Origin: Candidatus Brocadia sinica JPN1
Lineage (GTDB): Bacteria > Planctomycetota > Brocadiia > Brocadiales > Brocadiaceae
Direction of reading: 5' to 3'
Length of the DNA stretch: 64,000 nucleotides
NCBI RefSeq assembly: GCF_000949635.1
Contig: NZ_BAFN01000001.1
Location: 2,903,673 to 2,967,672 of the forward strand
This document shows positions 30,620-64,000 of this stretch, one piece after another (position 1 is the stretch's first letter; every line of letters begins with the position of its first letter). A program made the position numbers and the translations under genes. The notes beneath the pieces are model-generated. The model was not told where the DNA came from and ran no database searches. It worked only from the letters and a program-made list of their open reading frames with translations.

Positions 30620-30681
30620 TTGACATTAAATTTTATTTTGATAAATATATACTGAATTGATTTTGAGTCTCAGTATCATTA
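30620..30681 (+). promoter_or_regulatory. Promoter with Fur-like box before the cytochrome b module
   Basis: TTGACA (30620-30625), a 16-nt spacer and an AT-rich TAAATA (30642-30647), followed by TTGAGTCTCAGTATC (30663-30677). The box shares TGAGTCTCAGT with the stronger site at 51120-51140 and sits at the same place relative to the -10. The leader to the first gene is long (about 200 nt). Confidence 0.4.
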
Positions 30682-30886
30682 TAGTTTTGTTTAACAGCAG
30701 ACCGGCTCATATGTACAACTGTTAGACAAAGGGGACGATTCCAGGGAAAAACGGAGTTCTCTTTTGCCGGGCTTTTTTTGTTTTTCAGGAGCATTTTCAA
30801 GCAAGGCAACATTTTAGCTTTTTGAAATTCGCTGTCAGATCGGGAGAGGAACCGGACAAAACTCTGGAATAAAGCGGAGAGCAAAT

Positions 30887-31465
30887 ATGGATGATACAAA
30901 AAATGAATTCAACAAATCTATGAGCGAAGGAAGCAGTTTCTTAAAAGAGATTGTCGAAAAAAATATCACACAGAAGCTGATTCCTAAAGGGATGAGCTGG
31001 TTTGGATGCATGGGCGGGATATCACTGGTTGCGTTTCTCGTACAGACAATTACGGGTATATTTCTTATGTTCTATTTTATTCCTGGCACAAAAGAAGCAA
31101 TGGCCAGCATTCAGAATATAACACACCATGTTCCCTTCGGATGGTTTGTCCAGCGCATTCACGCTGTAGGTCCCCATATTATGATCGCCATGGTAATTAG
31201 TCATATGGTACGTATTTTCTTTAAAGGTATTTACCGTCATCCGCGGGAGTTACACTGGGTATCAGGATCGTGCCTGTTTATCCTCACCCTGCTCATGTAT
31301 TTTACGGGAAATTTACTGTCTGTCGGCAATATGAGTGAACTTTTTACCATCCGCTTGTCTTTTCTGTATGCTGTCCATGTGGCAGTCATTCCGGCCATCA
31401 TGGGTTTGTTTATGGGTATGCACTTTTTTATGATTAGAAAAACAGGAATTTACGAATCATTGTAA
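30887..31465 (+). CDS. Cytochrome b6-like quinone-interacting subunit
   Basis: 192 residues, four membrane helices. Both haem b ligand pairs are in place: RIHAVGPHIMIAMVISH with 13 residues between the His, and AVHVAVIPAIM...GMH with 14 residues between, followed by FFMIRKTGI, as in b6. WFGCMGGISL places a Cys where b6 has the Cys that binds haem c(n), so a third covalent haem is plausible. KGIYRHPRELHWVSG is the conserved loop after helix B. It forms the quinone-side core with the next gene. Confidence 0.88.
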   Translation: MDDTKNEFNKSMSEGSSFLKEIVEKNITQKLIPKGMSWFGCMGGISLVAFLVQTITGIFLMFYFIPGTKEAMASIQNITHHVPFGWFVQRIHAVGPHIMIAMVISHMVRIFFKGIYRHPRELHWVSGSCLFILTLLMYFTGNLLSVGNMSELFTIRLSFLYAVHVAVIPAIMGLFMGMHFFMIRKTGIYESL

Positions 31466-31520
31466 TAATTGTACGTATCATTTTTTTTGACAATACGATT
31501 TTACCGATAAGGAGGTTTAC

Positions 31521-31862
31521 GTGAAAGATTATACGCAAGGAAGGACTCCGGAGATGCTTGAGCCGTTTTTCCCGAATGAAATGTTCCGGTATATCATCGT
31601 GTCCTGCTTTTTACTCGTTGTTGAATGTATTGCCGTAGTTTTCCTGCCGTTGCCGTTTTCCCTCATCGAGAAACCGGATTATGTTCCCTGGTTTGGATTA
31701 CCTTTTTATGAGTTGCATAAGTATTTGCAAAATGACATTTTGCTGATTTTTCTTATGGTTTTCTGCGCATTGTTTCTTGTTTCATGGCCATTTCTTGAAA
31801 ACGCACTCAGATACAACCCGAAAAACAAGCTGTCGTTGAAAAGGATTCCGGCCAATGAATGA
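31521..31862 (+). CDS. Cytochrome b6f subunit IV-like protein, PEWY lost
   Basis: 113 residues from GTG 31521 (AAGGAGG upstream). Two membrane helices flank VPWFGLPFYELHKY, which aligns with the PEWYxLPxYxxLR region of subunit IV, and WPFLENALRYNP corresponds to the conserved PFLEN segment. The catalytic Glu of PEWY is replaced by Pro and the first Pro by Val. The protein is shorter than typical subunit IV (~160 aa). This suggests altered or absent quinol oxidation at the Qo site. Confidence 0.75.
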   Translation: MKDYTQGRTPEMLEPFFPNEMFRYIIVSCFLLVVECIAVVFLPLPFSLIEKPDYVPWFGLPFYELHKYLQNDILLIFLMVFCALFLVSWPFLENALRYNPKNKLSLKRIPANE

Positions 31863-32028
31863 AAAATGAGCGGGGGCAGACAGTAAGCGTTACCGCGTAA
31901 AATCCTTTTTCCTTTCGTAGATTTCCCCCCCTTCTCCGCCCCCGATAGGGGTAATTTGGTTGCGGTGTTGCTGCGTTAGGGTATGTCTAAAAATCAGGAA
32001 AATTTTACAACAATCTCAGGAGATTTCT

Positions 32029-33894
32029 ATGGTTACCCCGAAATATGTAAGAACAGTCAACATTTTTTGTGCAATCTTTCCCTTTGTAATACTTTGCTGT
32101 TGTCCATTTATGGCATTCATTTCGGATGCACAAGGGTCACGGGCTTCTGCGACTGAATTAAGGGAAACGCAAGTGCAGGCACAGTCTTCCTCAGAGAAGG
32201 GAGAAATCGTAGGAAAAGTGCGCGACACCTCCGGGAAACCCCTTGCAGATATAACGATTAGCATTCAGGCCCTTACCAGAGGAACACCCTATGGGTACGC
32301 ATTTGAAGAGGTAACCACCACCGACAAAAAAGGCAAATTCAGAATAACAAACATAAGTCTCGGCACCTATGTTGTCAGGGCTACCCCGTCTTCGGATGAG
32401 TCTTATTTGCCCAATGACGAGGTTATAGCAATTAACTCAACAAGAAAGTCCCATCGTATCAGGTTGAAACTTTCTTCGTCAATTCCTTCCGGCGCATTGT
32501 ACGTGGGGAGCGAGGTGTGCCTGGGGTGCCATGGTGAATATAAGGAATGGAAGCAAACGGCACACGCTAATTATATACGCACCAACATTACGTCAGACAC
32601 CGTTGTTGCCCCATTCAATGGAGAAATTGTCTCCACAAGCGATGGCAAGGTTAAATTTAAACCGTTCATACAGGATAATGTCTATAAGGTTACCCTTTAT
32701 GATTTGAACGATGAGTCCGTTTCGGCAACGTATACGGTAGTCCGCACCCATGGAGGTTCGGCGGTGGCAGGAAAGCAGAGATACCACGTGAAAATCGCCG
32801 GAAGTCATTATATCCTTCCTATTCAATACAACTTCCGGAATGTCGATGAAAATAATCCCCATGGTGCATGGGTCTCGTATCGCCCGCAGGACTGGTATAA
32901 CAGCGACCAGTCTCTGATAACTACCGACGTGAATGAACCTGGTTCACACCATTCCTCAGAACAATACTGCGAGGGGTGCCATGTAACGGGACTAAATATT
33001 ACACAAACAAATGACGGAAGGTTTATCTCCGGTTCCCAGGAATTTAATGTGTCCTGCGAAAGCTGTCACGGACCGGGGGGAGATCATGTGCCACAAAAGC
33101 TCCAGGGCAATCCAAAGGCGTACATCATCAATCCAAGATACCTGGCTGCAGACAGGGCCAACGAAGTGTGCGGCCAATGCCATTCACGGGTAAAAAACAA
33201 AACGGGTGAAAACGGTTCCGCGTTTGAGACAGAATATCCGTGTATTATTGACGGCAACAGGACCGTTCCCTTTGTGCCCGGCAAGGCGCTGGGAGACTAC
33301 ATCGAGATAACTGATTCCACAGGCAAGACAACTGCCGGCTACTGGGGTGACAATGATAGCGCAAAGCTGGGCGCAAATGCTTCACGGAACAATCATTCGA
33401 AGCAACATCATCAGCAATCGGATGATTTTCTAAAAGACACTCATTTTTCCCTTTCCGGGATGAGATGCATTGTCTGCCACGAGTCTCACGGTAGCGGTAA
33501 AAAAGGGACTGCACAACTCCTTGAAAAAAGCGAAAACAATAAACTTTGCATTGCATGCCATAGCAGCTACGCAGCCACGGAAAAAAAACACGGGAAGGAA
33601 CGGAACCTGCATGCAAAGCATTACTTCAGCCGGAGCGATGCGGGGGGAAGCCGTTGTACGGGTTGTCATATGCCCAAAACAGCCAAGTCCGGCGTGGACA
33701 ATGACATCTCCTCTCATATCTTTGACATTATAAAGCCATCTACGAGCAGGGCTATGGCCGACAATAATACGGCAGAAGGCAAAACAAACAGCCTCGGCAC
33801 GGTTATCACGAATTCCTGCTACGGTTGCCATCCTGAGGAGACGGATTACGGCGTTGCACTGTGGAATAGCTGGTCAATACTTTTTATCCCATGA
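32029..33894 (+). CDS. Octahaem c-type cytochrome with carboxypeptidase-regulatory-like domain
   Basis: About 621 residues from ATG 32029 (AGGAG upstream; the frame is open back to 31960). A signal/anchor helix (IFCAIFPFVILCCC) leads to a beta-sandwich domain (GEIVGKVRDTSGKPLADITI through YVVRATPSSD), then eight CxxCH motifs: CLGCH, CEGCH, CESCH, CGQCH, CIVCH, CIACH, CTGCH, CYGCH. The pattern CHEYKEWKQTAHAN-like after haem 1 and CESCHGPGGDH resembles cytochrome c554/hydroxylamine-oxidoreductase-related multihaem proteins. Periplasmic or anammoxosome-side electron transfer is expected. Confidence 0.85.
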   Translation: MVTPKYVRTVNIFCAIFPFVILCCCPFMAFISDAQGSRASATELRETQVQAQSSSEKGEIVGKVRDTSGKPLADITISIQALTRGTPYGYAFEEVTTTDKKGKFRITNISLGTYVVRATPSSDESYLPNDEVIAINSTRKSHRIRLKLSSSIPSGALYVGSEVCLGCHGEYKEWKQTAHANYIRTNITSDTVVAPFNGEIVSTSDGKVKFKPFIQDNVYKVTLYDLNDESVSATYTVVRTHGGSAVAGKQRYHVKIAGSHYILPIQYNFRNVDENNPHGAWVSYRPQDWYNSDQSLITTDVNEPGSHHSSEQYCEGCHVTGLNITQTNDGRFISGSQEFNVSCESCHGPGGDHVPQKLQGNPKAYIINPRYLAADRANEVCGQCHSRVKNKTGENGSAFETEYPCIIDGNRTVPFVPGKALGDYIEITDSTGKTTAGYWGDNDSAKLGANASRNNHSKQHHQQSDDFLKDTHFSLSGMRCIVCHESHGSGKKGTAQLLEKSENNKLCIACHSSYAATEKKHGKERNLHAKHYFSRSDAGGSRCTGCHMPKTAKSGVDNDISSHIFDIIKPSTSRAMADNNTAEGKTNSLGTVITNSCYGCHPEETDYGVALWNSWSILFIP

Positions 33895-34013
33895 CCTTTT
33901 CACGAGCAGGAAACAGCATTTCCTTGTACAGAAATTTTTGAGTTATTTCAGCGGGTTTTGAGGTGGCACAGACAAACTTCGTTTATCCGTGTTTCCCGTA
34001 AAACACAACGACC

Positions 34014-35315
34014 ATGTTTCTTGAAGTAAAAAGATTAAATAAAAGACTTACCATCAAACTGGGAATTTTCTCCCTGGTTGCCATAGGAGTTGTCGTTGTT
34101 GTCATGCTTGCTACGGTATCATCGCCAAAACAATCAAGGTTTTGTACCAGCTGCCATGGGGATGTTGTCTTTACGAACGCGTGTAAAAAATTGCCATCGG
34201 AAGATATTGCATGTCAGGATTGCCATAGTCATGAAAACTCCGGCGCGGTTACCACAGATCTCATGAATACGGTGAATGCTTTTGCTACTATGGACGTAAA
34301 AATAAAAAACCGGTATTGCACACAAGGGTCATGCCATCCATTGAATACGTTAACCTCTGCTGAGGTCCGATACAAAAAGATCACGCCATTTCAGCATAGA
34401 ACGCATACGGTCAACTTTCGTGAAAATCTGAGTATGAGATGCACTTCCTGCCATGCAAATCTTGGCGGAGAAAAGCATTTTCAGACGGATACGAGGACAT
34501 GCAATACCTGCCATTTCATTTATACCCAGAAACCTCTTTACACTTATGAGGAGAAACCCGTTTCGGATTGCACGGTGTGTCATAATAACATTGAAATAAC
34601 CAGGGACATATACGGAAAGACGTTTACGCATCTCAAATATGAAAGAGAAAAAAAGGTGCGTTGTTCTGACTGCCACTTTACCATCGTTCGGGGAACGGGA
34701 AGGGTGGATGAGGCAAGCTGCAGTCAATGTCATTCAGAAAAAACCGATCACGCAAAAGATGCGGCGCGAATGCATTACTATCATATCGTGAAGAACAAGA
34801 CGCCATGTACTCCATGCCATACCTCTATTAAGCATGGTTGGGTGAAGGAAAATGATGATGATTTTAAAAACAGCCATAGTTTGCGACCTACAGAATCAGG
34901 ATATGAGATTCAGAATTTGATTATGATGGGGGCCGGTGGCAAGGGCATAAAAGGGTTGCCAGATCCTATGTATCTTGCAACATTGAATTGCTCTGCATGC
35001 CACAAAGATGAATTTTACGCAAAGGTAAATCCAGAGGTATGTATTGCCTGTCATGAGCGCGGGTTTGACAAAATACTGTTCGAGCAGAAACTTTTTGTGT
35101 CGTCCATGATGAAGCGGCTGAAGTCTTTAATAAAAGCGGCAGAAAACCAACAAACGCCCGATACCTTATCCATCATCCGGGAGGCGGCGTTCAATTATGA
35201 ATTTGTCACAAAGGACGGGAGCTTTGGTAGCCATAATATTAAATACGTAAAAAACCTCCTGAATCATAGCATCGGGCAATTAAGGCAAATAATACGAAAT
35301 AAACCAAAGACTTAA
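34014..35315 (+). CDS. Membrane-anchored undecahaem cytochrome c
   Basis: 433 residues. An N-terminal uncleaved helix (IFSLVAIGVVVVVMLATV) is followed by 11 haem motifs: CTSCH, CQDCH, CTQGSCH (a CX4CH), CTSCH, CNTCH, CTVCH, CSDCH, CSQCH, CTPCH, CSACH, CIACH. The layout of one anchor and a haem string recalls NapC/NirT-like and extended multihaem quinol-linked cytochromes. The C-terminal ~100 residues are helical with no haems. No clear Shine-Dalgarno is visible. Confidence 0.85.
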   Translation: MFLEVKRLNKRLTIKLGIFSLVAIGVVVVVMLATVSSPKQSRFCTSCHGDVVFTNACKKLPSEDIACQDCHSHENSGAVTTDLMNTVNAFATMDVKIKNRYCTQGSCHPLNTLTSAEVRYKKITPFQHRTHTVNFRENLSMRCTSCHANLGGEKHFQTDTRTCNTCHFIYTQKPLYTYEEKPVSDCTVCHNNIEITRDIYGKTFTHLKYEREKKVRCSDCHFTIVRGTGRVDEASCSQCHSEKTDHAKDAARMHYYHIVKNKTPCTPCHTSIKHGWVKENDDDFKNSHSLRPTESGYEIQNLIMMGAGGKGIKGLPDPMYLATLNCSACHKDEFYAKVNPEVCIACHERGFDKILFEQKLFVSSMMKRLKSLIKAAENQQTPDTLSIIREAAFNYEFVTKDGSFGSHNIKYVKNLLNHSIGQLRQIIRNKPKT

Positions 35316-35344
35316 GAACAAACATTCCTGGAGATTGAATTGAT

Positions 35345-36325
35345 ATGTTTTTACGGCTTATCTCTTCCGTATGCCTCCTGTTCGCTTTGGCGCAGCGCCT
35401 TGCAATGGGCGATAGCAGTAACTACAAAACGCAAAAAATGCCTCTATGGTCATCATCAGACGCTGTGCAAATTACCCGGAATGAAAACGGAGTAAAAAAA
35501 TGCACGGGGGAAAACCATTGGAATGAGCTAAAGCAATCTGACTACCAGGGTGTTACTCATTCTTGTATTGACAGATGTCATGTGAATTATCTTGCTTATG
35601 AAAATCCTTATCAGAAAAGGGTCTTCCGCCATAAAATCCATTCTCCCGGTAAGGGGTTTGAATGTGGTCTCTGTCATACAAACGATGCTGTTGGGTCAAA
35701 AACACATGGCAAACTCATTGTGCAAAACAAGGATTGTCTGACCTGCCATCATAGGGATAAGGCTGCCGAAGATTGCTGGCACTGCCATGAGGGAATAAAG
35801 GAATATATGGAAGGGAATATCGAGAGATTTAATACAAAAGTGCCGGATCTTATGGCCAGAGATGTTTCCTGTACAGGATGCCATGAACTGGCGCCAGACG
35901 GGGCATCATTTAAGCCTGTGCGAGAGTGTTGTATAGAATGTCACGACTCCAGCGACAGTTATGGAAAGATTTATGATATCTGGAAAAAAATACTTCATGA
36001 TGAGTGCAAGCAATGCGAGGAAAAGGAGATGGATATTACTCTGGCAAATCAGCATGCGATTTATTACCCGGACTCTTTTTTTGTCTCGCGGTTGATGAAG
36101 GCAACTTCTCACATCCTGGCCCGCGACATACCGAAGTTGCATGATGCAGGGGAGAAAAGTGAGGTGAAATCGTTGCAGAAAAAGACATATTCGCCGGTTG
36201 ATTTTCATAACCGGCAAGAGCTCTTGCAATTTATCCGGGCGAACGGTATGCATAATATCATATTATCACAACTCCTTTTACAACACATCAAAACGGAACA
36301 ACAACGGTTGCGTAACGATAGATGA
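35345..36325 (+). CDS. Exported hexahaem cytochrome c
   Basis: 326 residues. Signal peptide at 1-21 (LISSVCLLFALAQRLAMG). Six haem motifs: CIDRCH (CX3CH), CGLCH, CLTCH, CWHCH, CTGCH, CIECH, all in the first ~210 residues; a further CKQCE is not a haem site. The C-terminal helical part (DSFFVSRLMKATSHIL, RQELLQFIRANGMHN) resembles the tail of the undecahaem protein, suggesting shared ancestry. Its ATG is 30 bp after the previous stop. Confidence 0.82.
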   Translation: MFLRLISSVCLLFALAQRLAMGDSSNYKTQKMPLWSSSDAVQITRNENGVKKCTGENHWNELKQSDYQGVTHSCIDRCHVNYLAYENPYQKRVFRHKIHSPGKGFECGLCHTNDAVGSKTHGKLIVQNKDCLTCHHRDKAAEDCWHCHEGIKEYMEGNIERFNTKVPDLMARDVSCTGCHELAPDGASFKPVRECCIECHDSSDSYGKIYDIWKKILHDECKQCEEKEMDITLANQHAIYYPDSFFVSRLMKATSHILARDIPKLHDAGEKSEVKSLQKKTYSPVDFHNRQELLQFIRANGMHNIILSQLLLQHIKTEQQRLRNDR

Positions 36326-51078: not shown

Positions 51079-51140
51079 TTGACAAATTTTTGCTAATTTA
51101 TATAATTTTCTTCATAATGTTGAGAATGAGTCTCAGTTAA
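51079..51140 (+). promoter_or_regulatory. Consensus sigma-70 promoter overlain by Fur-like box
   Basis: TTGACA (51079-51084), 16-nt spacer, TATAAT (51101-51106): both hexamers are perfect. Directly downstream at 51120-51140 lies a palindromic box with core TGAGAATGAGTCTCA, matching the inverted-repeat style of Fur operators. Binding there would cover the start site and repress the porin gene at 51163 when iron is replete. Confidence 0.75.
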
Positions 51141-51162: not shown

Positions 51163-52638
51163 ATGCGTTATTTAGGTCTTCTTATTGTAGTGACTTTGTT
51201 CCTGTTTGTTTTTATTGCCAATGGTTTTGCACAATCTTCCGAAACTGAGGCTTTGAAAAGCAAAGTTGAAATGCTCGAACAAGAATTGAAAGAGATAAAG
51301 GATCTGCTCAAGCAACAAATTGAAAGGGACGCCCAAAAAGAGAAGGAAATTGCATCCTTAAAGGAAGAAGTGCAGAAAAAGGAGGTAAAAATTGCCGTAG
51401 AAGAAGCTCCTGCTCCTCCATCTGTCAGAGGGCCTGTTGTTGCAGAGGAAGAAAATCGCCACACTGCCGAGGAATCGTATTTAGCCAAGAAGTCGGCCGA
51501 ATTATCTGAAAAAAATCTTGCCCCGACCTTTGGAGGTGTCTATACAAAACCATTTCTGAGGAGATACGGCAGAAATACCTATCTGGGCGGTTACATGGAC
51601 TTCGAGTACAGGACAACCGAAAACGAAGCCGATCCGCAGGGTTTTACGCAAAAGAGATTTATTCCCTTTATTTACTCAGATATTTCAGACCGGGTGAAAC
51701 TTGCGGCAGAAATAGAATTTGAATTTGGTGGCGTAGGAGGCGGCAGAAACGGAGAGGTGATCCTGGAATTTGCAACCATGGATTTCTTGCTGACCGACTG
51801 GATCAATTGGAGGGGCGGGTATATCCTTACGCCCCTGGGAAAGTTTAATTTAGTGCACGATTCTCCTTTGCAAGACTTTACAGACCGGCCTCTGGTAAAC
51901 CAGTTAATTATTCCGACCACCCTTACCGATTTAGGAATGGGGTTCTTTGGTACCCTTTATCCGTCAGAGCTCAGCAAACTTGATTACGAGATTTATGTTA
52001 CCAATGGTGTGTTTCGTGGTTTAGATGAAGACGGTGAGGTGCGTTTCGGAGAGGTAAATGGATTGAGGAGCTCTAAAAGTGGATATGTCAACGATAACTA
52101 TAATGAAAGCCCTGGTATTGTGGGTCGTGTGGCCTTTAGTCCTTTTATAGGTTTGGAGTTCGGTGGGTCTGCTTACACAAGCCGGTATGATGAAAAAAAT
52201 GATAATCAGTTAACCATTCCAGCCTTGGATTTTATCTATCAAAGAGGGCCCTTTGAGCTCGTCGGTGAAGGGGCTTATGCCTTTATGGAAACAAATAGCT
52301 TTGCAGAGGATGCCGGTATAACCGATGATATGTGGGGATACTATCTGGAAGCCCGGTATCACTTTATGCCGTCTGTGTTAAGAACCCTGGCCCCTCATAT
52401 TTTTACAGAAAATTCAACCTTTACATCCGTTCTGCGCTGGGATCAGGTACAAACGGCAGGCAGGGATGACGATTTTAAAAGGGTTCATTGGTTAAGAAAC
52501 CGGCTCACGCCCGGCCTGAACTATCGCTATACCGAAGACACGGTCTTCAAGTTGGACTATCAGATAAATATGGAAGAAAAAGACATGCCTGATACATCGA
52601 ACAACGCCTTTTTGTTTTCTGTCGCAACCTATTTTTAA
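51163..52638 (+). CDS. Outer-membrane porin with N-terminal coiled coil
   Basis: 491 residues. Signal peptide to ANGFAQ (residue ~23), a coiled coil (residues ~27-75, alternating ALKSKVEMLEQELKEIKDLL), a Pro/Glu linker, then a beta-barrel rich in aromatic-alternating strands (LGGYMDFEYRTTENEAD, IYSDISDRVKLAAEIEFEF) ending in Phe (LFSVATYF), the usual OMP C-terminus. The coiled coil may tether it to the cell wall, as in SlpA/S-layer-type porins. Controlled by the promoter/Fur-like site upstream. Confidence 0.8.
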   Translation: MRYLGLLIVVTLFLFVFIANGFAQSSETEALKSKVEMLEQELKEIKDLLKQQIERDAQKEKEIASLKEEVQKKEVKIAVEEAPAPPSVRGPVVAEEENRHTAEESYLAKKSAELSEKNLAPTFGGVYTKPFLRRYGRNTYLGGYMDFEYRTTENEADPQGFTQKRFIPFIYSDISDRVKLAAEIEFEFGGVGGGRNGEVILEFATMDFLLTDWINWRGGYILTPLGKFNLVHDSPLQDFTDRPLVNQLIIPTTLTDLGMGFFGTLYPSELSKLDYEIYVTNGVFRGLDEDGEVRFGEVNGLRSSKSGYVNDNYNESPGIVGRVAFSPFIGLEFGGSAYTSRYDEKNDNQLTIPALDFIYQRGPFELVGEGAYAFMETNSFAEDAGITDDMWGYYLEARYHFMPSVLRTLAPHIFTENSTFTSVLRWDQVQTAGRDDDFKRVHWLRNRLTPGLNYRYTEDTVFKLDYQINMEEKDMPDTSNNAFLFSVATYF

Positions 52639-56762: not shown

Positions 56763-56783
56763 TTGAGATTGAGTCTCTGTTAA
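56763..56783 (+). promoter_or_regulatory. Fur-like box before acidic secreted protein
   Basis: The core TGAGATTGAGTCTC shares 12 of 14 positions with the box at 51120 (TGAGAATGAGTCTC). It ends 20 bases before the ATG at 56803, a repressing position. Regulator inferred from motif only. Confidence 0.55.
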
Positions 56784-56802: not shown

Positions 56803-58255
56803 AATGTTTTCGTTAAACAAGTTGTTTATGCCATTAGGGATTGTTGTTGGTTTGTTTAGTGGCGCCTATTTGCCGGATATGGGTATATCTGCTCTTCAGG
56901 CGGCTTCAATCGTTGGCGTAATTTCAGATGAAAATGGTGATCCCATAGAAGACGCACTTATCATGATCAAATCGAAAAAGAATACCAGTGGAAAGAAGTC
57001 GAAAAAAACGGTTTCAACAGATTCTGAAGGTGTCTATGAAATCGATAATGTAAAAAAGGGGAAATACAAACTTACGGTTAAATCCAAGGGTTATGAAACG
57101 GTAACCGAAGTTTTGACGACAACCAACAACAGTGAAGAGGTAGAAAGGGATTTCGTCTTAACATTTTCAACCTACACAAAAACCAGCGATACCAAAACGA
57201 TGGATGCGGCGGTCGCTTCCTACAACGAAATTGGTGTGCTGAGAAAACAGGTTCCGATTGATGGCGATGCCATAGCTTCAGCCTATGAAGGGGAATTGCA
57301 GGATTTAACAAAAGAGGTGGATGCAGAAAACACGTTAACCCTGGATAGTGATATTTTGGCTGCCATTGAGGACATCAAAAATAATAATGAGCCCGATTTG
57401 GCCGTACAAGTTATTGATAAGACGCTGCAACGGCTGTTTTACTTAGCGATTCTTGAGCGTATTACCGATGTCCGTGATGATTTTCATGATGGAAAAAAGT
57501 CAGATCTTAAATTCTTATGGGATGAGGCATACGCAGCTTATCAGGCCATTGCAGGCACGGCTGACAGGGAAAATAAGGTGATTACCGAGGACCGCACATC
57601 TATCGAAACAGGAAGTAATCCCAATCTGGAAGACAGGATAACGATTGCCTTTGTCCGGGGACAAGATGCCCTGGATAGAAAAGACCATGACGAAGATGAA
57701 ATTACCGTCGGTGTACAGCGGCAGGTAATCAGACTTTCCCTTGTCAGGGCATTCTATATAGCTGTTCTCAGGGAAGTAGAAGGTGTCTTAAATAACAAAG
57801 ACAGCGACCAAGAGAAAGCCCTTGTGTACCAGAAAGAGGGTGAGGTTTATTACAGGATCATTGAGGAATTCGTCTCACGTGATAACCCCGAAGGTAACGA
57901 AATCATAAAATCCCAGCTTACCGGTGATTTGGCTGATGTGAACGCCGATACGCTTGTAAGTGAACTGAGCAAAGGTTTTATTGGCAGGGTAAGGGGAGAA
58001 TTGGAATCGAACGAATCTGCTCTCAATGCAAACGACCGCGGTGATGCTATGGTGACTGCTGAAGAGGCGCTCCTCTATTCAGAGGTATTTTTGGAGGATT
58101 TGGAGTTGCGCCTTGGTGCCGATGACAGCGAGGAGATAGAAGATGTCCTGTATGAATTGAAGGATGCCAGTGACGAGGTTAATAAAGAAAATGCAGATAC
58201 CGCCAGTCAAACAATTTCAACCATTCTTGATAGCTATGAAAATGTATTGCTTTAG
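56803..58255 (+). CDS. Exported acidic helical protein with regulatory-like domain
   Basis: About 483 residues from ATG 56803 (a longer frame to 56618 spans the palindrome and the Fur-like box, so is not used). Signal peptide, then a carboxypeptidase-regulatory-like domain (ASIVGVISDENGDPIEDALI), then ~370 residues of strongly acidic helices (YEGELQDLTKEVDAENT, LFYLAILERITDVRDDFHDG, IRLSLVRAFYIAVLREVEGV) with an internal repeat feel. Abundant Glu/Asp/His in helices would suit metal binding, but no known family was recognised. Fur-like site upstream. Confidence 0.6.
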
Positions 58256-58327: not shown

Positions 58328-59314
58328 ATGTCTAAAAACAAAATGAAGTATTTTCTTATCTCTCTCGGAATCATTGCGCCTGTTTTTTCCATAGCAATCC
58401 ATCTCCGGTCAGGGAATGCAAGCAGTCAGCTTACGGTGGAAGAGAAAAACACGGAAATGAAATTAGCTCAAAAAAGGAAGAAATCCATTAGTTTTACGGA
58501 TGATGTCTTACCGCTTTTCGTAAGGTCTAAAAAGAAAGGCAAATCGGAATCAATTCCTTGCATCAAATGCCACTTTTCCAGCCTTACCATAGAAAGCAAC
58601 GGCATTCCTGAAAACGCCCTGACCGAATTAAGCCTGGGCTCATATAAGGATATCATGGCTGGCGCCGATGCGGGTACAGAGCCGATCATTGATACTGATA
58701 ATCCCGAGAAGAGTCTTCTCCTGCAGAGGCTGGAAGGGGAAGGAGAGGATCTCGGCATGTATGATGGCCGCATGCCGTATGGAGGCCCTTTCTTTACAAA
58801 AAAAGAAATTGCCATCATCCGTAAATGGATCGAAGAGGGGGCAAAAGACGATACCCCGTCCCCCGATTTTAACCGGGACGTGCTCCCCTTACTTACGGAA
58901 TCGGTAAATGGCAGTACTCCATGTAGTCTTTGTCACTATAACAACAACAGTGCAACATCCAGGGAACGTTCCCAATCTCAGGCATGTCTGGACCTGTCCA
59001 GCTGGGAAGGCATAATCTCCGGCGCTGATGGAATTCTGCACGAAGCCCTTATCGATTTGGAAAATCCGGCAAACAGTATGCTCTTAAAGCGTCTGCGTGG
59101 TCAGCAAACGGAAGAAGAAATTGAAAGTGATCATCGCATGCCCTTTGGCGGGCCGTATTTTACGGAGTATGAGATCCAGAAGATCGAACGCTGGATAGCA
59201 AATGGCGCAAAAGGTCCCAATGGAGAAGACCCCAGCGAGGCCGATATTAGTGGTGCGGGTGAATGTATGGGTGGAAGCGGAAGCGGCTCCGGCAGTGGTA
59301 GTGGCAGCGAGTAA
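58328..59314 (+). CDS. Planctomycete-type cytochrome c with two CxxCH and Gly-Ser tail
   Basis: 328 residues. Signal/anchor helix at the N-terminus, then two homologous modules, each with FxDDVLPLF or FNRDVLPLL, CIKCH or CSLCH, DIDNPEKSLLLQRLEG-like / DLENPANSMLLKRLRG, RMPYGGPFFT / RMPFGGPYFT and IxKWIxxGAK. This is the planctomycete cytochrome c (PSCyt1-like) pattern, expected to hold two haems. It ends in a GSGSGSGSGS-type tail. RBS GAGGGG before the ATG. Confidence 0.8.
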   Translation: MSKNKMKYFLISLGIIAPVFSIAIHLRSGNASSQLTVEEKNTEMKLAQKRKKSISFTDDVLPLFVRSKKKGKSESIPCIKCHFSSLTIESNGIPENALTELSLGSYKDIMAGADAGTEPIIDTDNPEKSLLLQRLEGEGEDLGMYDGRMPYGGPFFTKKEIAIIRKWIEEGAKDDTPSPDFNRDVLPLLTESVNGSTPCSLCHYNNNSATSRERSQSQACLDLSSWEGIISGADGILHEALIDLENPANSMLLKRLRGQQTEEEIESDHRMPFGGPYFTEYEIQKIERWIANGAKGPNGEDPSEADISGAGECMGGSGSGSGSGSGSE

Positions 59315-59367: not shown

Positions 59368-59637
59368 ATGTCAGCGATGGTAATCAGCAGTCTTGATAGA
59401 TTCATTAGTATGGCACGAAAACTGGAAGCTTATGGGGTGACAAACATCCATCTCTGCTATGCAAAAAGTACTGATGATTTAGACATATCAGTAATAGCGC
59501 TCGTGCCGTTTGTTGACTATGTGATACTGGGCCAGGATGCCCATTACTTGCCGTATCTTAACCAAATAGTAAAGGAGGCACAGCTACGGCATATCCCTGT
59601 TTTGCCGGAAGAACGTATTGTGGCAGTAAAAAATTAA
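59368..59637 (+). CDS. Hypothetical protein, 89 aa
   Basis: Soluble alpha/beta protein without signal: VISSLDRFISMARKLEAYG, then VALVPFVDYVILGQDAHYL-like strand/helix and HIPVLPEERIVAV. Looks like a single small Rossmann-like unit. GGAGACAA precedes the ATG. Not recognised; it lies between the haem protein and the ferrosome-like operon. Confidence 0.5.
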   Translation: MSAMVISSLDRFISMARKLEAYGVTNIHLCYAKSTDDLDISVIALVPFVDYVILGQDAHYLPYLNQIVKEAQLRHIPVLPEERIVAVKN

Positions 59638-59999: not shown

Positions 60000-60025
60000 T
60001 TAATGAGAACAAGACTCAATTGCAA
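60000..60025 (+). promoter_or_regulatory. Fur-like box before ferrosome-like operon
   Basis: ATGAGAACAAGACTCAATTG contains TGAGA and a mirrored ACTCA around a short spacer, the same half-sites as at 51120 and 56763 but with weaker symmetry. It lies downstream of a TATAAA and about 90 bp before the first ATG of the operon. Confidence 0.45.
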
Positions 60026-60113
60026 TCTATGTTCTTTTAGAAAGACGCCTCATTGTATGAGGCGACCATTTCAGTGTTTTGATAGAAAGAACTTTAGCAA
60101 GGAGAGAATAATC

Positions 60114-60512
60114 ATGGCTCCGTTAAGTATTTTGCCGGGTAGAATAAGGTTTGAAAGCCAATATCTTATTGGAAAACCACATATTTGCAGGTATTTAAAG
60201 GAAAGCATCGTGAATTATTTAGGAGGATTGAAGGAGGTAACTGCAAATCACAAAACAGGGAGGATCCTGGTTAGGTTTGATGAGCGCCAGATTGACAGGC
60301 AGACCTTAACACAACATATCAATCAGATCGTGAAAGAAGGTATGGAGAAGGCGGCCAATAGCTGGCGGTTTTCGGCAGAGGAAAAGAATTCAAAACCACC
60401 CGTTTCAAGGCATGCCTTGCATGCCTTGACGGATGTGGTTGCCCATGCGATATTGCCGATGCCATTGAATGCCCTGATCCCAATGGCAATAAAAGCAGCG
60501 ATGGGAAGGTAA
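60114..60512 (+). CDS. HMA-like GRxR-motif protein (FezC-like)
   Basis: 132 residues from ATG 60114 (AAGGAGAG upstream; the frame back to 60003 overlaps the Fur-like box). SILPGRIRFES matches the (H/R)xxGRxR motif that opens N-terminal domains in ferrosome-type ATPases, followed by a ferredoxin-like HMA fold (YLKESIVNYLGGLKEVTANH, GRILVRFDE) without the CxxC metal site. The C-terminal ~40 residues are hydrophobic (HALTDVVAHAILPMPLNALI). First gene of a tight cluster ending in a P1B ATPase; FezC-like by position and motif. Confidence 0.6.
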   Translation: MAPLSILPGRIRFESQYLIGKPHICRYLKESIVNYLGGLKEVTANHKTGRILVRFDERQIDRQTLTQHINQIVKEGMEKAANSWRFSAEEKNSKPPVSRHALHALTDVVAHAILPMPLNALIPMAIKAAMGR

Positions 60513-60559
60513 TGCTTGGTGTATCATGAGATTAATTTTAGATACAAAAGGAGGTCTTT

Positions 60560-60961
60560 ATGGAAGAAAAGGTTGAGGGGAAAGGAGAAAGCAAAAACAA
60601 TGAAAATGAAAGGGGGAAGCATATGAGTGGTTTTTTTATAAGCAAACGCAGTCTCTGGCTGGTGGCAGGTGGTGCATTGGGTGTCCTTGCTGCCATTGGA
60701 ATTGGTAAGCTGTCAAAGAAGATGAGACCCGCTGCGGTTGGGGTTACAAAGGAAGGTCTTGCATTTAAGGAATGGTTAATTGCAAATTACGAAAAAGTGA
60801 AAGAGGATATAGAAGATATTGTGGCTGAGGCAAAACATGTACATCAGAAAGACCTTGAGACGACGACAGAAACAGAAAAAAAGGAGGAGGATATACTCAG
60901 GAAGGTGGAACAGATGGTAGAAGAGGCTTTACGGCAGAGGTCAAAAAAGGAGGAAACATAA
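60560..60961 (+). CDS. Single-span protein with DUF5132-like helix
   Basis: 133 residues, AGGAGG upstream. A Lys/Glu-rich cytoplasmic start, one Gly/Ala-rich membrane helix (LWLVAGGALGVLAAIGIG), then RPAAVGVTKEGLAFKEWL and a long charged helix (YEKVKEDIEDIVAEA). The RPxxVGxxKxGL plus acidic helix recalls DUF5132-like proteins found beside P-type ATPases. Two bases separate its stop from the next ATG. Confidence 0.6.
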   Translation: MEEKVEGKGESKNNENERGKHMSGFFISKRSLWLVAGGALGVLAAIGIGKLSKKMRPAAVGVTKEGLAFKEWLIANYEKVKEDIEDIVAEAKHVHQKDLETTTETEKKEEDILRKVEQMVEEALRQRSKKEET

Positions 60962-60963
60962 CC

Positions 60964-61152
60964 ATGGGTATTATCAATAGGACAAGAACGTATCTCGGTT
61001 CACTAGTAACCATAGCTGGTGGTGTTGGTGCAGTCCTGGTTGGGGCGTATATATTTTCCAGAATTAAGGAAAGACAAGAGAAGGAAACCCGTCTTGAGAG
61101 AATAGAGCAAATACTCCAGAAACTGGCAGAGGAACAGAAAAAGAAGGAATGA
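60964..61152 (+). CDS. Small membrane-anchored coiled-coil protein
   Basis: 62 residues: a Gly-rich membrane helix (LGSLVTIAGGVGAVLVGAYI) and a charged helix (RIKERQEKETRLERIEQIL). Its stop overlaps the ATPase start as ATGA, so it is translated coupled to it. Comparable in size and layout to small hydrophobic Fez-cluster proteins, but not recognised by sequence. Confidence 0.6.
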   Translation: MGIINRTRTYLGSLVTIAGGVGAVLVGAYIFSRIKERQEKETRLERIEQILQKLAEEQKKKE

Positions 61153-63251
61153 ATTATAGAATTATTCACAATCTTCCCCAAAGGATGAGGATCAGTCTCA
61201 CCTTACCCAAAAGGCATACCCCGGAAAATTCCCAGATAGAGAGATTATTTTTGGCTATTGATGGGGTTCAGAAGGTATCCTTCAATTGCCGAACCAGGAA
61301 TCTCCTGGTTAGTTATAACGGCGATCGCACTGTGAGAGTTGTCTTGTTAAAGATAATAAAGGAGACGTCCTTGATTTTTGTAAAAAAAGAAAATTTTAAA
61401 CAAGATAAACTTGAACAGAAAAAGAAGGCTGCAGTGTTGTCGGGAGCTCTCTTGATTGCGCGACCAATTATACCATTCATACTAGCGCCATTATTTGCGC
61501 TGTATGGCGCCATGCCTGTTTTGAGAAGAGGTTTCAGGGCAACCCTGAACAGACGTCTGAATGTTGATACCCTTGACTCTGCAGCGATAGGTATTTCATT
61601 GCTGAGGGGTGATTACCTGACAGCAAGTTTAATAACATTCTTTCTGAAGGTTGGCGATTATCTCGAGGAGCGGATACGTCAAAAATCGAGGAAAAGCCTT
61701 TCAAAGATGTTCCAGAGTCAGGATGGGTGGGCATGGATAAAGAGAAATGGCTGGGAAATGAAGGTTAATATAAAAGATATAGCTGCAGGCGATCTTGTGG
61801 TTGTAAGGACGGGTAGCAGTATTCCTGTGGATGGTATTGTGGCAGAGGGTGTGGCACTGGTCAATCAGTCGTCAATGACGGGCGAGCCCGTGTCTGTTCC
61901 TAAAATGGCAGGATTAATGGTTTATGCAGGTACAGTACTGGAAGAAGGTCTTCTAACAATAAAATCAATAAGAGTGGGTGATGAAACAAGGGTCTCCAAA
62001 ATAATCAAGGTGATTGAGGAATCGGAAGGTTTGAAGGCAGATGTGCAAAACTATGCAGAAATGCTTGCAAACAAGATTGTTCCCTATAGCTTTTTGTTGA
62101 GCGGGCTGATATACCTCTTTGCAAGCAACCCATTAAAGGCTGCCTCAGTGCTGCTGGTAGATTACTCATGCTCCATCAAATTATCAACCCCTTTGACAAT
62201 TATGTCGGCAATGATCGCAGCATCAAAGCGAGGTGTCCTCATAAAAGGTGGCAGATTTATAGAAAAATTGGCGCAGGCAAATATCTTTGTTTTTGATAAG
62301 ACAGGAACCCTTACAGAGGCAAAGCCAAAAGTTTTCGATCTCCTCCCCTTCAACGGTTTTAACCGGGAATACCTGTTAAAAAATGTGGCATGTGTGGAAG
62401 AGCATTTTCCACATCCGGTGGCAACTGCCGTGGTGAAAAGAGCAGAAGACGAAGGACTTGTCCATGAGGAGAACCATGCAGAGGTTGAATATGTCCTTGC
62501 CCATGGCATTGCATCAAGGATTGAAGGCAAAAGGATACTGGTGGGGAGTAAACACTTCATATGTGAAGATAATAAGATTAATGTAGAACGTGAAGAGCCT
62601 GTAATAAAAGATTTTATGGACAGGGGATATTCAATACTTTATGTGGCTGTGGAAGATAAGCTTGCAGGTGTTGTAGCTATTGAAGACCATGTAAGAGAAG
62701 ATTCGCAAAAATTTCTCAAGATGCTTAAGAATTTGGGTGTGGAGCGAACCATCATGCTTACCGGTGACAATGATGCTACTGCACGTAATGTGGCAAAAAG
62801 ACTTGGGATAGAGGAATACTACGCCCAGGTCCTTCCGGAAAGAAAGACAGGAATAATTAAAGATTTAAAAGGGCGGGGTTATGTGGTTGTAATGGTTGGA
62901 GATGGGATAAATGACTCCCCTGCTATTTCTTATGCGGATGTTGGTATATCTCTGAAACATGGTGCAGATATCGCGAGAGAGGCTTGTGATATTTTACTTT
63001 TAGATGTAGCGTTCGAGGGGATTATCGAGGCAAGGGAGATTGCACAGGATGCCATGTCCCGCATCAAAAAGAATTTCGGATATATAATTGGAATTAACAG
63101 CGCCTTGATAGGTCTCGGTATCTTGGGGGTAATAGCTCCGGTGACTTCAGCCTTTATACATAATGCAACAACAATTCTCGTAGCCGCAAATTCACTGAAG
63201 CCCTATCGTATCTCTCCTTGCAGGGGAAGAGAGGATAATGGTCTGAAATAG
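61149..63251 (+). CDS. P1B-type metal ATPase (FezB-like)
   Basis: 700 residues. N-terminal HMA-like domain with HNLPQRMRISL (GRxR-like, Gly replaced by Gln) and no CxxC; membrane helices; A-domain SSMTGEPVSVPK; in the metal-site helix DYSCSIKLSTP (residues 338-348) in place of the copper-type CPC; P-domain FDKTGTLTEAKPK (Asp383); N-domain HPVATAVVKRA; hinge MVGDGINDSPAISYADVGI. The DYSC-type helix and lack of CPC point to the iron-linked P1B-6/FezB group rather than Cu+ or Zn2+ pumps. In ferrosomes such pumps load iron into membrane vesicles. Confidence 0.85.
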   Translation: MNYRIIHNLPQRMRISLTLPKRHTPENSQIERLFLAIDGVQKVSFNCRTRNLLVSYNGDRTVRVVLLKIIKETSLIFVKKENFKQDKLEQKKKAAVLSGALLIARPIIPFILAPLFALYGAMPVLRRGFRATLNRRLNVDTLDSAAIGISLLRGDYLTASLITFFLKVGDYLEERIRQKSRKSLSKMFQSQDGWAWIKRNGWEMKVNIKDIAAGDLVVVRTGSSIPVDGIVAEGVALVNQSSMTGEPVSVPKMAGLMVYAGTVLEEGLLTIKSIRVGDETRVSKIIKVIEESEGLKADVQNYAEMLANKIVPYSFLLSGLIYLFASNPLKAASVLLVDYSCSIKLSTPLTIMSAMIAASKRGVLIKGGRFIEKLAQANIFVFDKTGTLTEAKPKVFDLLPFNGFNREYLLKNVACVEEHFPHPVATAVVKRAEDEGLVHEENHAEVEYVLAHGIASRIEGKRILVGSKHFICEDNKINVEREEPVIKDFMDRGYSILYVAVEDKLAGVVAIEDHVREDSQKFLKMLKNLGVERTIMLTGDNDATARNVAKRLGIEEYYAQVLPERKTGIIKDLKGRGYVVVMVGDGINDSPAISYADVGISLKHGADIAREACDILLLDVAFEGIIEAREIAQDAMSRIKKNFGYIIGINSALIGLGILGVIAPVTSAFIHNATTILVAANSLKPYRISPCRGREDNGLK

Positions 63252-63330
63252 AGACAGAAAAATCCGTAGCATTCCAACTGACGACATTCTATCCCTTATA
63301 AAATCTGCGGAGTTTTTAAAAACTGTGACT

Positions 63331-64000
63331 ATGAAAAGGTATTTCTTTTTACTACTTTTGCCGTGGAATTTTATTCTTTTTTCGAGTATATCTTCGGGGC
63401 AGTCCTTACTTGAAGAAGGGGAGCCTCCGGAAAACTACCAGTTTCAGGTCTTCCTGGAAGAAGAGGGGGCCATTGCAAAAGTTTTTGCTGGTTGCGATCA
63501 GGTCGAATCTGAGATTCTTGCCCTTACTCCTGAAGGACTCGAGTATTTCAAGGGAATATTGAAAAGACCGGATCTTGAAGCAACCTTTGAGGTCTTTATA
63601 GGTAAAAAGGGTCCGGTGATAGACCGGTATGCTATTATTACCGAAGAAATGGGCTGCTTTCACCCAATTACGTGGATTCTCAGTACAAATGCAGAGGGAA
63701 AGATTCTTGACATTGCTGTGATGATCTATAGAGAAAGCCGTGGGCAAGAGGTAAGCCGGAGGAGGTTTTTGAAGCAATTTGAAGGCAAATCCTTAAAAGA
63801 CCCCCTTTCGACGAATAAGGACATTATTAAGATTACTGGCGCTACTACGTCTGTACAGGCAGTTTGTCGGGGCGTGAAAAAGATGCTTGCCTTTATTCAG
63901 GAATTTTACATCAAAAAAAATCACCTCTCCGGAACCCTGGCCCAGCGCCTGACTCCTGAGGAAGTTCACGCCACGAGGGCAACTCACCGGCAACTCTTTA
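63331..64000 (+). CDS. FMN-binding-domain protein, runs off window
   Basis: ATG 63331 opens a frame still open at the end (223 codons visible). N-terminal hydrophobic export signal (YFFLLLLPWNFILFSSI), then an FMN-bind-like domain (FEVFIGKKGPVIDRYAIITE, ITWILSTNAEGKILDIAVM, YRESRGQEVSRRRFLKQFEG) with the flavinylation-type motif KITGATTSVQAV, where the Thr would carry FMN attached by ApbE. Such proteins move electrons across membranes. No flavin-transferase or partner is visible before the edge. Confidence 0.75.
   Translation, partial: MKRYFFLLLLPWNFILFSSISSGQSLLEEGEPPENYQFQVFLEEEGAIAKVFAGCDQVESEILALTPEGLEYFKGILKRPDLEATFEVFIGKKGPVIDRYAIITEEMGCFHPITWILSTNAEGKILDIAVMIYRESRGQEVSRRRFLKQFEGKSLKDPLSTNKDIIKITGATTSVQAVCRGVKKMLAFIQEFYIKKNHLSGTLAQRLTPEEVHATRATHRQLF

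Follow-up and report, generated by a model that had tools for sequence, protein, structure and literature searches.

The FezB protein of the six-gene fez operons is a P1B-6 pump, and the P1B-6 pumps studied so far (FezB) are tied to iron storage. In Clostridioides difficile, FezA and FezB are required for ferrosomes and are Fur-repressed (PMC12574912), and FezC is known as a ferrosome cytochrome (PMC11334425). Small partners are also known from other metal pumps: PacL proteins bring their pump into clusters and stabilise it (PMC9374683, PMC13043812), PacL1 is the scaffold of CtpC in zinc resistance (PMC9374683), and DUF6110 proteins, whose pairing with P1B-6 pumps has been reported (PMC9374683), have been termed PacL-like (PMC13043812). 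In anammox cells, iron nanoparticles have been reported (PMC12445922, PMC6934571), and the anammox encapsulin has been proposed to serve iron storage within the anammoxosome (PMC8346489). Here we analyse a four-gene operon of Candidatus Brocadia sinica JPN1 that encodes a predicted pump of the FezB type. The window, meaning the whole stretch of DNA that was analysed, comprises 64,000 nucleotides of contig NZ_BAFN01000001.1 (positions 2,903,673 to 2,967,672); coordinates given without a locus number refer to it. G-numbers denote genomes, G000 being the window's own, and L-numbers denote the loci examined.

The original prediction, made from the letters of the window, had read this operon as a ferrosome-like fez cluster. 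We favour a somewhat different reading, for and against which the evidence seems to us about evenly balanced: an Fe(II) pump with its standard partners would load the anammoxosome/encapsulin system, under a Fur-like repressor, rather than or besides building ferrosomes.

The ATPase and its partner proteins

Four forward-strand genes form a tight operon (60114-63251): HMA2 (132 amino acids, 60114..60512), ORF2 (133 amino acids, 60560..60961), ORF3 (62 amino acids, 60964..61152) and a P1B ATPase (700 amino acids, 61149..63251). The gaps of 47 bp (60512 to 60560) and 2 bp (60961 to 60964) and the 4-nt ATGA overlap (61149-61152) are as originally described, and so is the gene order. Only the first start has moved, from 60003 to the ATG at 60114, which is the most likely start by its Shine-Dalgarno sequence (AGGAGA) and by the relatives' genes, which begin at the same point. 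Hydrazine synthase alpha (1599 bits) and gamma exceed the NCBIfam cut-offs in G000, which is therefore a true anammox genome, as had been surmised. Nine relatives carry the ATPase at 70-86% identity, so that a chance grouping of reading frames can be dismissed. In a survey of 39 relatives, the ATPase scored above the limit in 10 genomes, G000 included, and in 4 of 20 genera. In all eight relatives whose contigs extend upstream of the ATPase, the three small genes stand before it in the order HMA2, ORF2, ORF3, with ORF2 frameshifted in two of these genomes (L021, L025). Across a sample of 294 Planctomycetota genomes, such a pump was found only in anammox bacteria and two others. At one locus of G002 (L019 3813-6001) the operon is partially duplicated in tandem, HMA2, ORF2, ORF3 and the first 25 ATPase codons being followed by ORF2, ORF3 and the ATPase.

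The fourth transmembrane segment (TM4) of the ATPase reads DYSCSIKL (62160-62183) in place of CPC, as had been noted from the sequence, and HNATT in TM6 (HN at 63159-63164) completes the P1B-6 signature. DKTGT is present, and DYSC and HN are kept in 10 of 10 aligned anammox copies. The N-terminus is HMA2-like with R12 and R14, reading PQRMR, not GRxR. Profile searches matched the Pfam families E1-E2_ATPase, Hydrolase and, weakly, HMA_2, as well as the NCBIfam heavy-metal P-type ATPase model TIGR01525 (515 bits). Trees were computed with pumps from plasmids, named genome contigs, and Desulfobacterota, Enterobacterales-order, Alphaproteobacteria and Clostridioides-family genomes. All P1B-6 pumps formed one group (54-row core, support 100/99), split into two main branches. 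The first (100/100) holds proteobacterial and some Desulfobacterota loci, several with a short FezC-like two-histidine protein and many accessory genes. The second (100/99), with DUF6110-type partners, unites pumps of Firmicutes, Methanobrevibacter, Desulfobacterota, two other Planctomycetota and anammox bacteria; within it, the anammox pumps are sister to three Desulfobacterota loci (100/99), with which they have ORF3 in common. CopA, ZntA and CtpC-type pumps, the last of these carrying CPC together with HN, fall outside the P1B-6 group. A phylogeny against FezB, CtpC and CopA, proposed with the original prediction as the test that could overturn it, thus assigns the ATPase to the P1B-6 (FezB-type) pumps, and tree position and motifs together rule out a CopA or CtpC identity. 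Two arrangements at Desulfobacterota loci were also observed: at L180 and L181, two P1B-6 ATPase genes stand in tandem after ORF2, ORF3 and HMA2 genes, and at L199-L203 a second, CPC-type P1B ATPase (MACPCAT) adjoins the P1B-6 pump and FezC-like and FeoA-domain proteins.

A link of homologous operons to iron, on which the original prediction had also staked itself, was found. Of the 60 non-anammox P1B-6 loci, 16 have a Feo gene no more than about 6 kb away, against 1 of 66 other P1B loci (Fisher p=2.8e-5, too optimistic a value, since the counts come from related genomes), and the linkage is seen in five or more distinct lineages of the tree.

ORF2 consists of a glycine-rich single span followed by a helix (KEDIEDIVAEA), with an alternative start at 60623. 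With ORF2 as the sole phmmer query, the matches, from different phyla, are the small genes immediately before P1B-6 pumps. An iterated ORF2 hidden Markov model (HMM) adds the DUF1490 PacL and YtxH-like partners; 59 of its 80 matches lie at most 250 bp upstream of a pump, and the remainder are mostly one gene further up or at loci without a recognised pump. Low-complexity likeness alone would not give that gene position. Profile comparison with DUF6110 proteins in hhalign gave 98.1%, and an HMM of DUF6110 proteins matches ORF2 at 4.8e-13; the Pfam models themselves stay below cut-off (DUF6110, 14.3 bits; DUF1490, 14.9 bits against a cut-off of 28.4). A DUF6110 (PF19605) search in the 39 relatives was uninformative, as the controls also gave no match. 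In a Clostridioides-family genome, a DUF6110 gene (1.5e-23) directly precedes the P1B-6 pump, an arrangement like that of FezA and FezB in C. difficile (PMC12574912). Such pairs occur in genomes (4.2-4.8 Mb, locus GC 28-30%) of the Clostridioides mangenotii family, for which we infer the name C. difficile; a genus-level search around C. mangenotii gave no P1B-6 pump, and the family-level search found them.

These comparisons identify ORF2 as a predicted DUF6110/PacL-like, FezA-type partner, the usual upstream neighbour of most P1B-6 pumps examined, and suggest that the small proteins of the DUF6110, PacL and YtxH-like kinds belong together in a single family of pump partners. Its likeliest role is scaffolding of the pump, because PacL proteins cluster and stabilise theirs and ORF2 has the same build. 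The original prediction had suggested that both coiled-coil proteins might be new membrane-shaping parts. This does not hold for ORF2; for ORF3, a single span with a short coiled coil, it holds only in that the protein is specific to a subgroup, being confined to anammox bacteria and the three sister Desulfobacterota loci.

The kinship with PacL raises the question of whether the operon is an efflux platform of the PacL/CtpC kind, in which ORF2 and ORF3 would scaffold the export of a toxic metal (Zn, Cd, Mn or another) with no role for iron. ORF2 is remotely related to the DUF1490 PacL proteins, the scaffolding of CtpC by PacL1 serves zinc resistance (PMC9374683), and DUF6110 has been called PacL-like (PMC13043812). 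However, CtpC-type pumps retain CPC and fall outside the P1B-6 clade, ORF2 is without the C-terminal Asp/His metal-binding motif, and both the Feo linkage of the family and a dyad common to the operon and a TonB receptor gene (see below) point to iron. We consider an efflux platform quite unlikely.

Structure prediction of the small proteins, suggested with the original prediction, succeeded for HMA2 and gave no confident AlphaFold model for ORF2. HMA2 has a PGRIR motif and no CxxC, in keeping with the GRxR-motif HMA-like protein originally described here, and ends in a hydrophobic tail. It matches Pfam HMA_2 (PF19991, E=9.9e-12), AlphaFold gave a pLDDT of about 83-94 at residues 1-80, and the top Foldseek matches are MerP and CopZ; the N-terminal half is confidently predicted to adopt an HMA-like ferredoxin fold, and orthologues occur in the relatives. 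HMA2 proteins at related loci carry a C-terminal two-helix hairpin with two histidines, which there occurs either alone or fused to HMA2. Judged by size, position and histidines, these hairpin proteins are probably FezC, and the sequences suggest homology between FezC and the HMA2 tail. At L184-L190, L191-L198, L180-L182 and L038, it is HMA2 or a protein nearby that ends in such a hairpin. A model of the hairpin found no match at the anammox operon, the HMA2 tail included, or in 1.26 Mb of G000. G000 has DUF4405 matches elsewhere; because the match in the window belongs to a cytochrome b gene, none of them was counted as FezC.

The logic of a fez cluster is therefore retained in the FezB-type pump and its FezA-type partner, without a FezC-like hairpin, so that this is not a complete Desulfovibrio-type fez cluster. 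A classical ferrosome operon, whose four proteins would build separate iron-filled cytoplasmic membrane vesicles in the style of Desulfovibrio, Shewanella, Rhodopseudomonas and C. difficile, could draw on the presence of this pair within one operon, as FezA and FezB are the two proteins reported as required in C. difficile (PMC12574912). Besides the missing hairpin, it has against it that relatives link the operon to a secreted encapsulin system and that anammox bacteria already have an internal membrane organelle, so that a separate vesicle is not required. We regard a classical ferrosome operon as unlikely.

The encapsulin locus of the relatives

Downstream of the operon, on the same strand and within about 10 kb, G001, G002, G015 and G022 carry genes for thioredoxin, a cytochrome-encapsulin (cEnc) and NiR/HAO. 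In G022 the pump is followed by an 89-amino-acid gene and genes for a CbiX-type protein, a thioredoxin-like protein, a diheme-cytochrome encapsulin (PF04454, 1.7e-62; NCBIfam family 1 encapsulin, 242 bits), a Cu-oxidase/multiheme NiR/HAO fusion and DUF2325; G015 is arranged similarly. In G001 and G002 it is followed by genes for an FMN-ApbE protein, thioredoxin, cEnc and NiR/HAO. The locus next to the pump is the encapsulin locus already known from anammox bacteria; DUF2325 and thioredoxin have been listed as its possible secondary cargo (PMC6934571). The original prediction had tied the iron-rich particles of the anammoxosome to the operon itself; the particles stand, and the neighbouring encapsulin locus is at least as good a candidate. 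By eye, the N-termini of the encapsulin, thioredoxin, FMN-ApbE and CbiX-type proteins look like signal sequences, pointing to a location in the anammoxosome lumen or in the periplasm.

Parts of this neighbourhood also lie in the window. The start of a gene for a secreted FMN_bind-ApbE fusion, part of the encapsulin locus, is found at 63325..64000 (+); the frame runs for 425 amino acids in L018 before a frameshift. The gene (L018 8177-9824) is thus frameshifted in G000, or affected by a sequencing error, and is one intact frame in relatives. It was rejected as a core part of the operon on account of this frameshift, of its presence in G005 and G008, neither of which yielded such a pump, and of its absence beside the G010 pump. 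Upstream of HMA2 are genes, all on the forward strand, for a secreted carboxypeptidase-regulatory-like protein with weak FEA1-related similarity (56804..58255), a protein with two CxxCH motifs and a CTI/PSCyt1-like region (58328..59314) and an 89-amino-acid protein of no recognised family (59368..59637) that lies near the locus in most relatives. Secreted CbiX-type chelatase genes adjoin the pump at L024 (6887-7945), L025 (4354-5373) and L027 (8165-9229).

Such neighbours would also suit a supply of metal to enzymes instead of a store, with Fe(II) or copper delivered to the anammoxosome lumen for the secreted CbiX-type chelatase, NirK and NiR/HAO. In several relatives the operon is flanked by CbiX-type, NirK-like and NiR/HAO genes, some of which also carry the dyad described below. 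Several pump-bearing genomes, however, are without CbiX or NirK nearby, and the P1B-6 pumps in the literature (FezB) belong to iron storage. Enzyme supply as the sole purpose appears to us improbable.

An operator-like dyad

A 7-1-7 dyad, TGAGA(A/C)TNA(G/T)TCTCA, precedes HMA2 in G001, where it is perfect, and in G022 and G015; perfect or one-mismatch copies lie before HMA2 at L022, L024 and L026. In the window, a weak, degenerate Fur-box-like copy, TGAGAACAAGACTCA, is found upstream of HMA2 (60004..60018). The dyad also precedes DUF2325, NirK, FEA1-like (in the window at 56764-56778) and TonB-receptor genes, and a copy, TGAGAATGAGTCTCA (51121..51135), lies 27 bp upstream of the gene for a secreted 491-amino-acid protein (51163-52638). 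A matrix was built from 13 sites. Sites outside its training set precede the orthologues of the 491-amino-acid protein in G001, G002, G008, G010, G015 and G022, the FEA1-like gene in G001 and G008, and NirK in G015; in G021 one precedes the gene of a TonB-dependent receptor that matches a siderophore-receptor model best, though below cut-off. The matrix, which was trained on sites from these same loci, matched 32 times (about 24 distinct sites) in 414 kb around the loci, 0 times in the reversed sequence and twice in 1.2 Mb of other G000 DNA.

We take the dyad as a candidate Fur-box-like operator, with Fur as its putative regulator; a nitrite or NO regulator is also possible, because the dyad precedes NirK genes. 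The strict dyad was rejected as a genome-wide common Fur box: 1.26 Mb of G000 contain only 4 sites with no more than one mismatch, and one of these falls within the ATPase gene. A classic E. coli Fur box was rejected too, with only 9-13 matching letters at scattered places. The presumed 5' leader of the operon contains a hairpin, CGCCTCAT-TGT-ATGAGGCG (60046..60064), whose counterpart at L020, CGTCTTAT-TGT-ATAAGACG, differs by two compensatory base pairs. Elsewhere in the window, a dyad-like site outside training (30658-30684, score 19.2) lies about 200 bp before a cytochrome b gene and the multiheme cytochrome genes behind it, which have 8, 10 and 5 CxxCH motifs (30887-36325).

Proposed role and comparison with known systems

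On our reading of an Fe(II) pump serving the anammoxosome/encapsulin system, the ATPase would most likely use ATP to move Fe(II) from the cytoplasm into a compartment that is topologically extracytoplasmic, most probably the lumen of the anammoxosome. ORF2 would probably stabilise and cluster the pump in the membrane, HMA2 probably deliver or gate the metal, and ORF3 may serve as a further scaffold. The pump would feed a lumenal iron store or metal-demanding enzymes; to judge from the relatives' locus, its partners in the lumen would be the secreted cytochrome-encapsulin cage as a putative sink, the NiR/HAO fusion, thioredoxin and, in some species, the CbiX-type chelatase. A Fur-like repressor would switch the operon. 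In a more specific version, which we put forward tentatively, the store would be a hybrid, with the pump mounted in the anammoxosome membrane by the FezA-like and ORF3 scaffolds and the Fe(II) collected by cytochrome-encapsulin cages under Fur control.

Several observations weigh against our reading, beyond the optimistic Feo statistic, the missing ORF2 model, the training of the dyad matrix and the weakness of its G000 site. Genes for Feo, ferritin or siderophores were not seen next to the anammox operons. G008 has the FEA1-like, 89-amino-acid, FMN-ApbE, thioredoxin, cEnc and NiR/HAO genes, with a few hundred bases at the site of the pump operon; because it has that locus without the operon, the latter behaves as a removable module of the encapsulin locus. 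Conversely, in the part of G000 examined, about a third of the genome, the 61 kb upstream and the roughly 40 kb downstream yielded no encapsulin gene, nor did the DNA examined of G021 and G010. G000 keeps the frameshifted FMN-ApbE gene and thioredoxin, with a transposase-like gene (IS66-type by eye) between them. The pump and the encapsulin locus are thus separable.

Iron-rich anammoxosome particles have long been on record with no mechanism known for their loading, and the function of the anammox encapsulin is not settled; a FezB-type pump beside encapsulin genes offers one testable answer to both. In the literature examined, no link between this pump operon and the anammox encapsulin was found, nor any mention of ferrosomes and anammox together. 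The ferrosome-type pump family now reaches a globally important group of the nitrogen cycle, and a hybrid store, if true, would join membrane-pump and protein-cage iron storage in one system.

Among the described systems, the C. difficile-type FezAB shares with the anammox operon the P1B-6 pump, the DUF6110-type single-span partner immediately upstream and the same major tree clade. The anammox operon adds HMA2 and ORF3, an encapsulin neighbourhood in relatives and a Planctomycetota host. The FezC-bearing fez clusters (by literature, of D. magneticus, Shewanella and Rhodopseudomonas) comprise a P1B-6 pump, a FezC-like cytochrome, HMA proteins and several small proteins. They have the pump, a GRxR HMA2 and a small partner directly upstream in common with the anammox operon; the anammox pump belongs to the sister clade, and its operon, in which no FezC-like hairpin was found, has four genes against six or more. 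PacL1-CtpC of Mycobacterium likewise pairs a P1B pump with a small single-span partner encoded just upstream, and the partners are remotely homologous; in contrast, CtpC has CPC in TM4 and sits on a separate tree branch, and the metal-binding tail of PacL1 is absent from ORF2. The anammox cEnc and NiR/HAO system (PMC6934571, PMC8346489) is linked to the operon as the neighbouring locus in at least four relatives and differs from it in kind, the encapsulin being a protein cage and the operon encoding a membrane pump.

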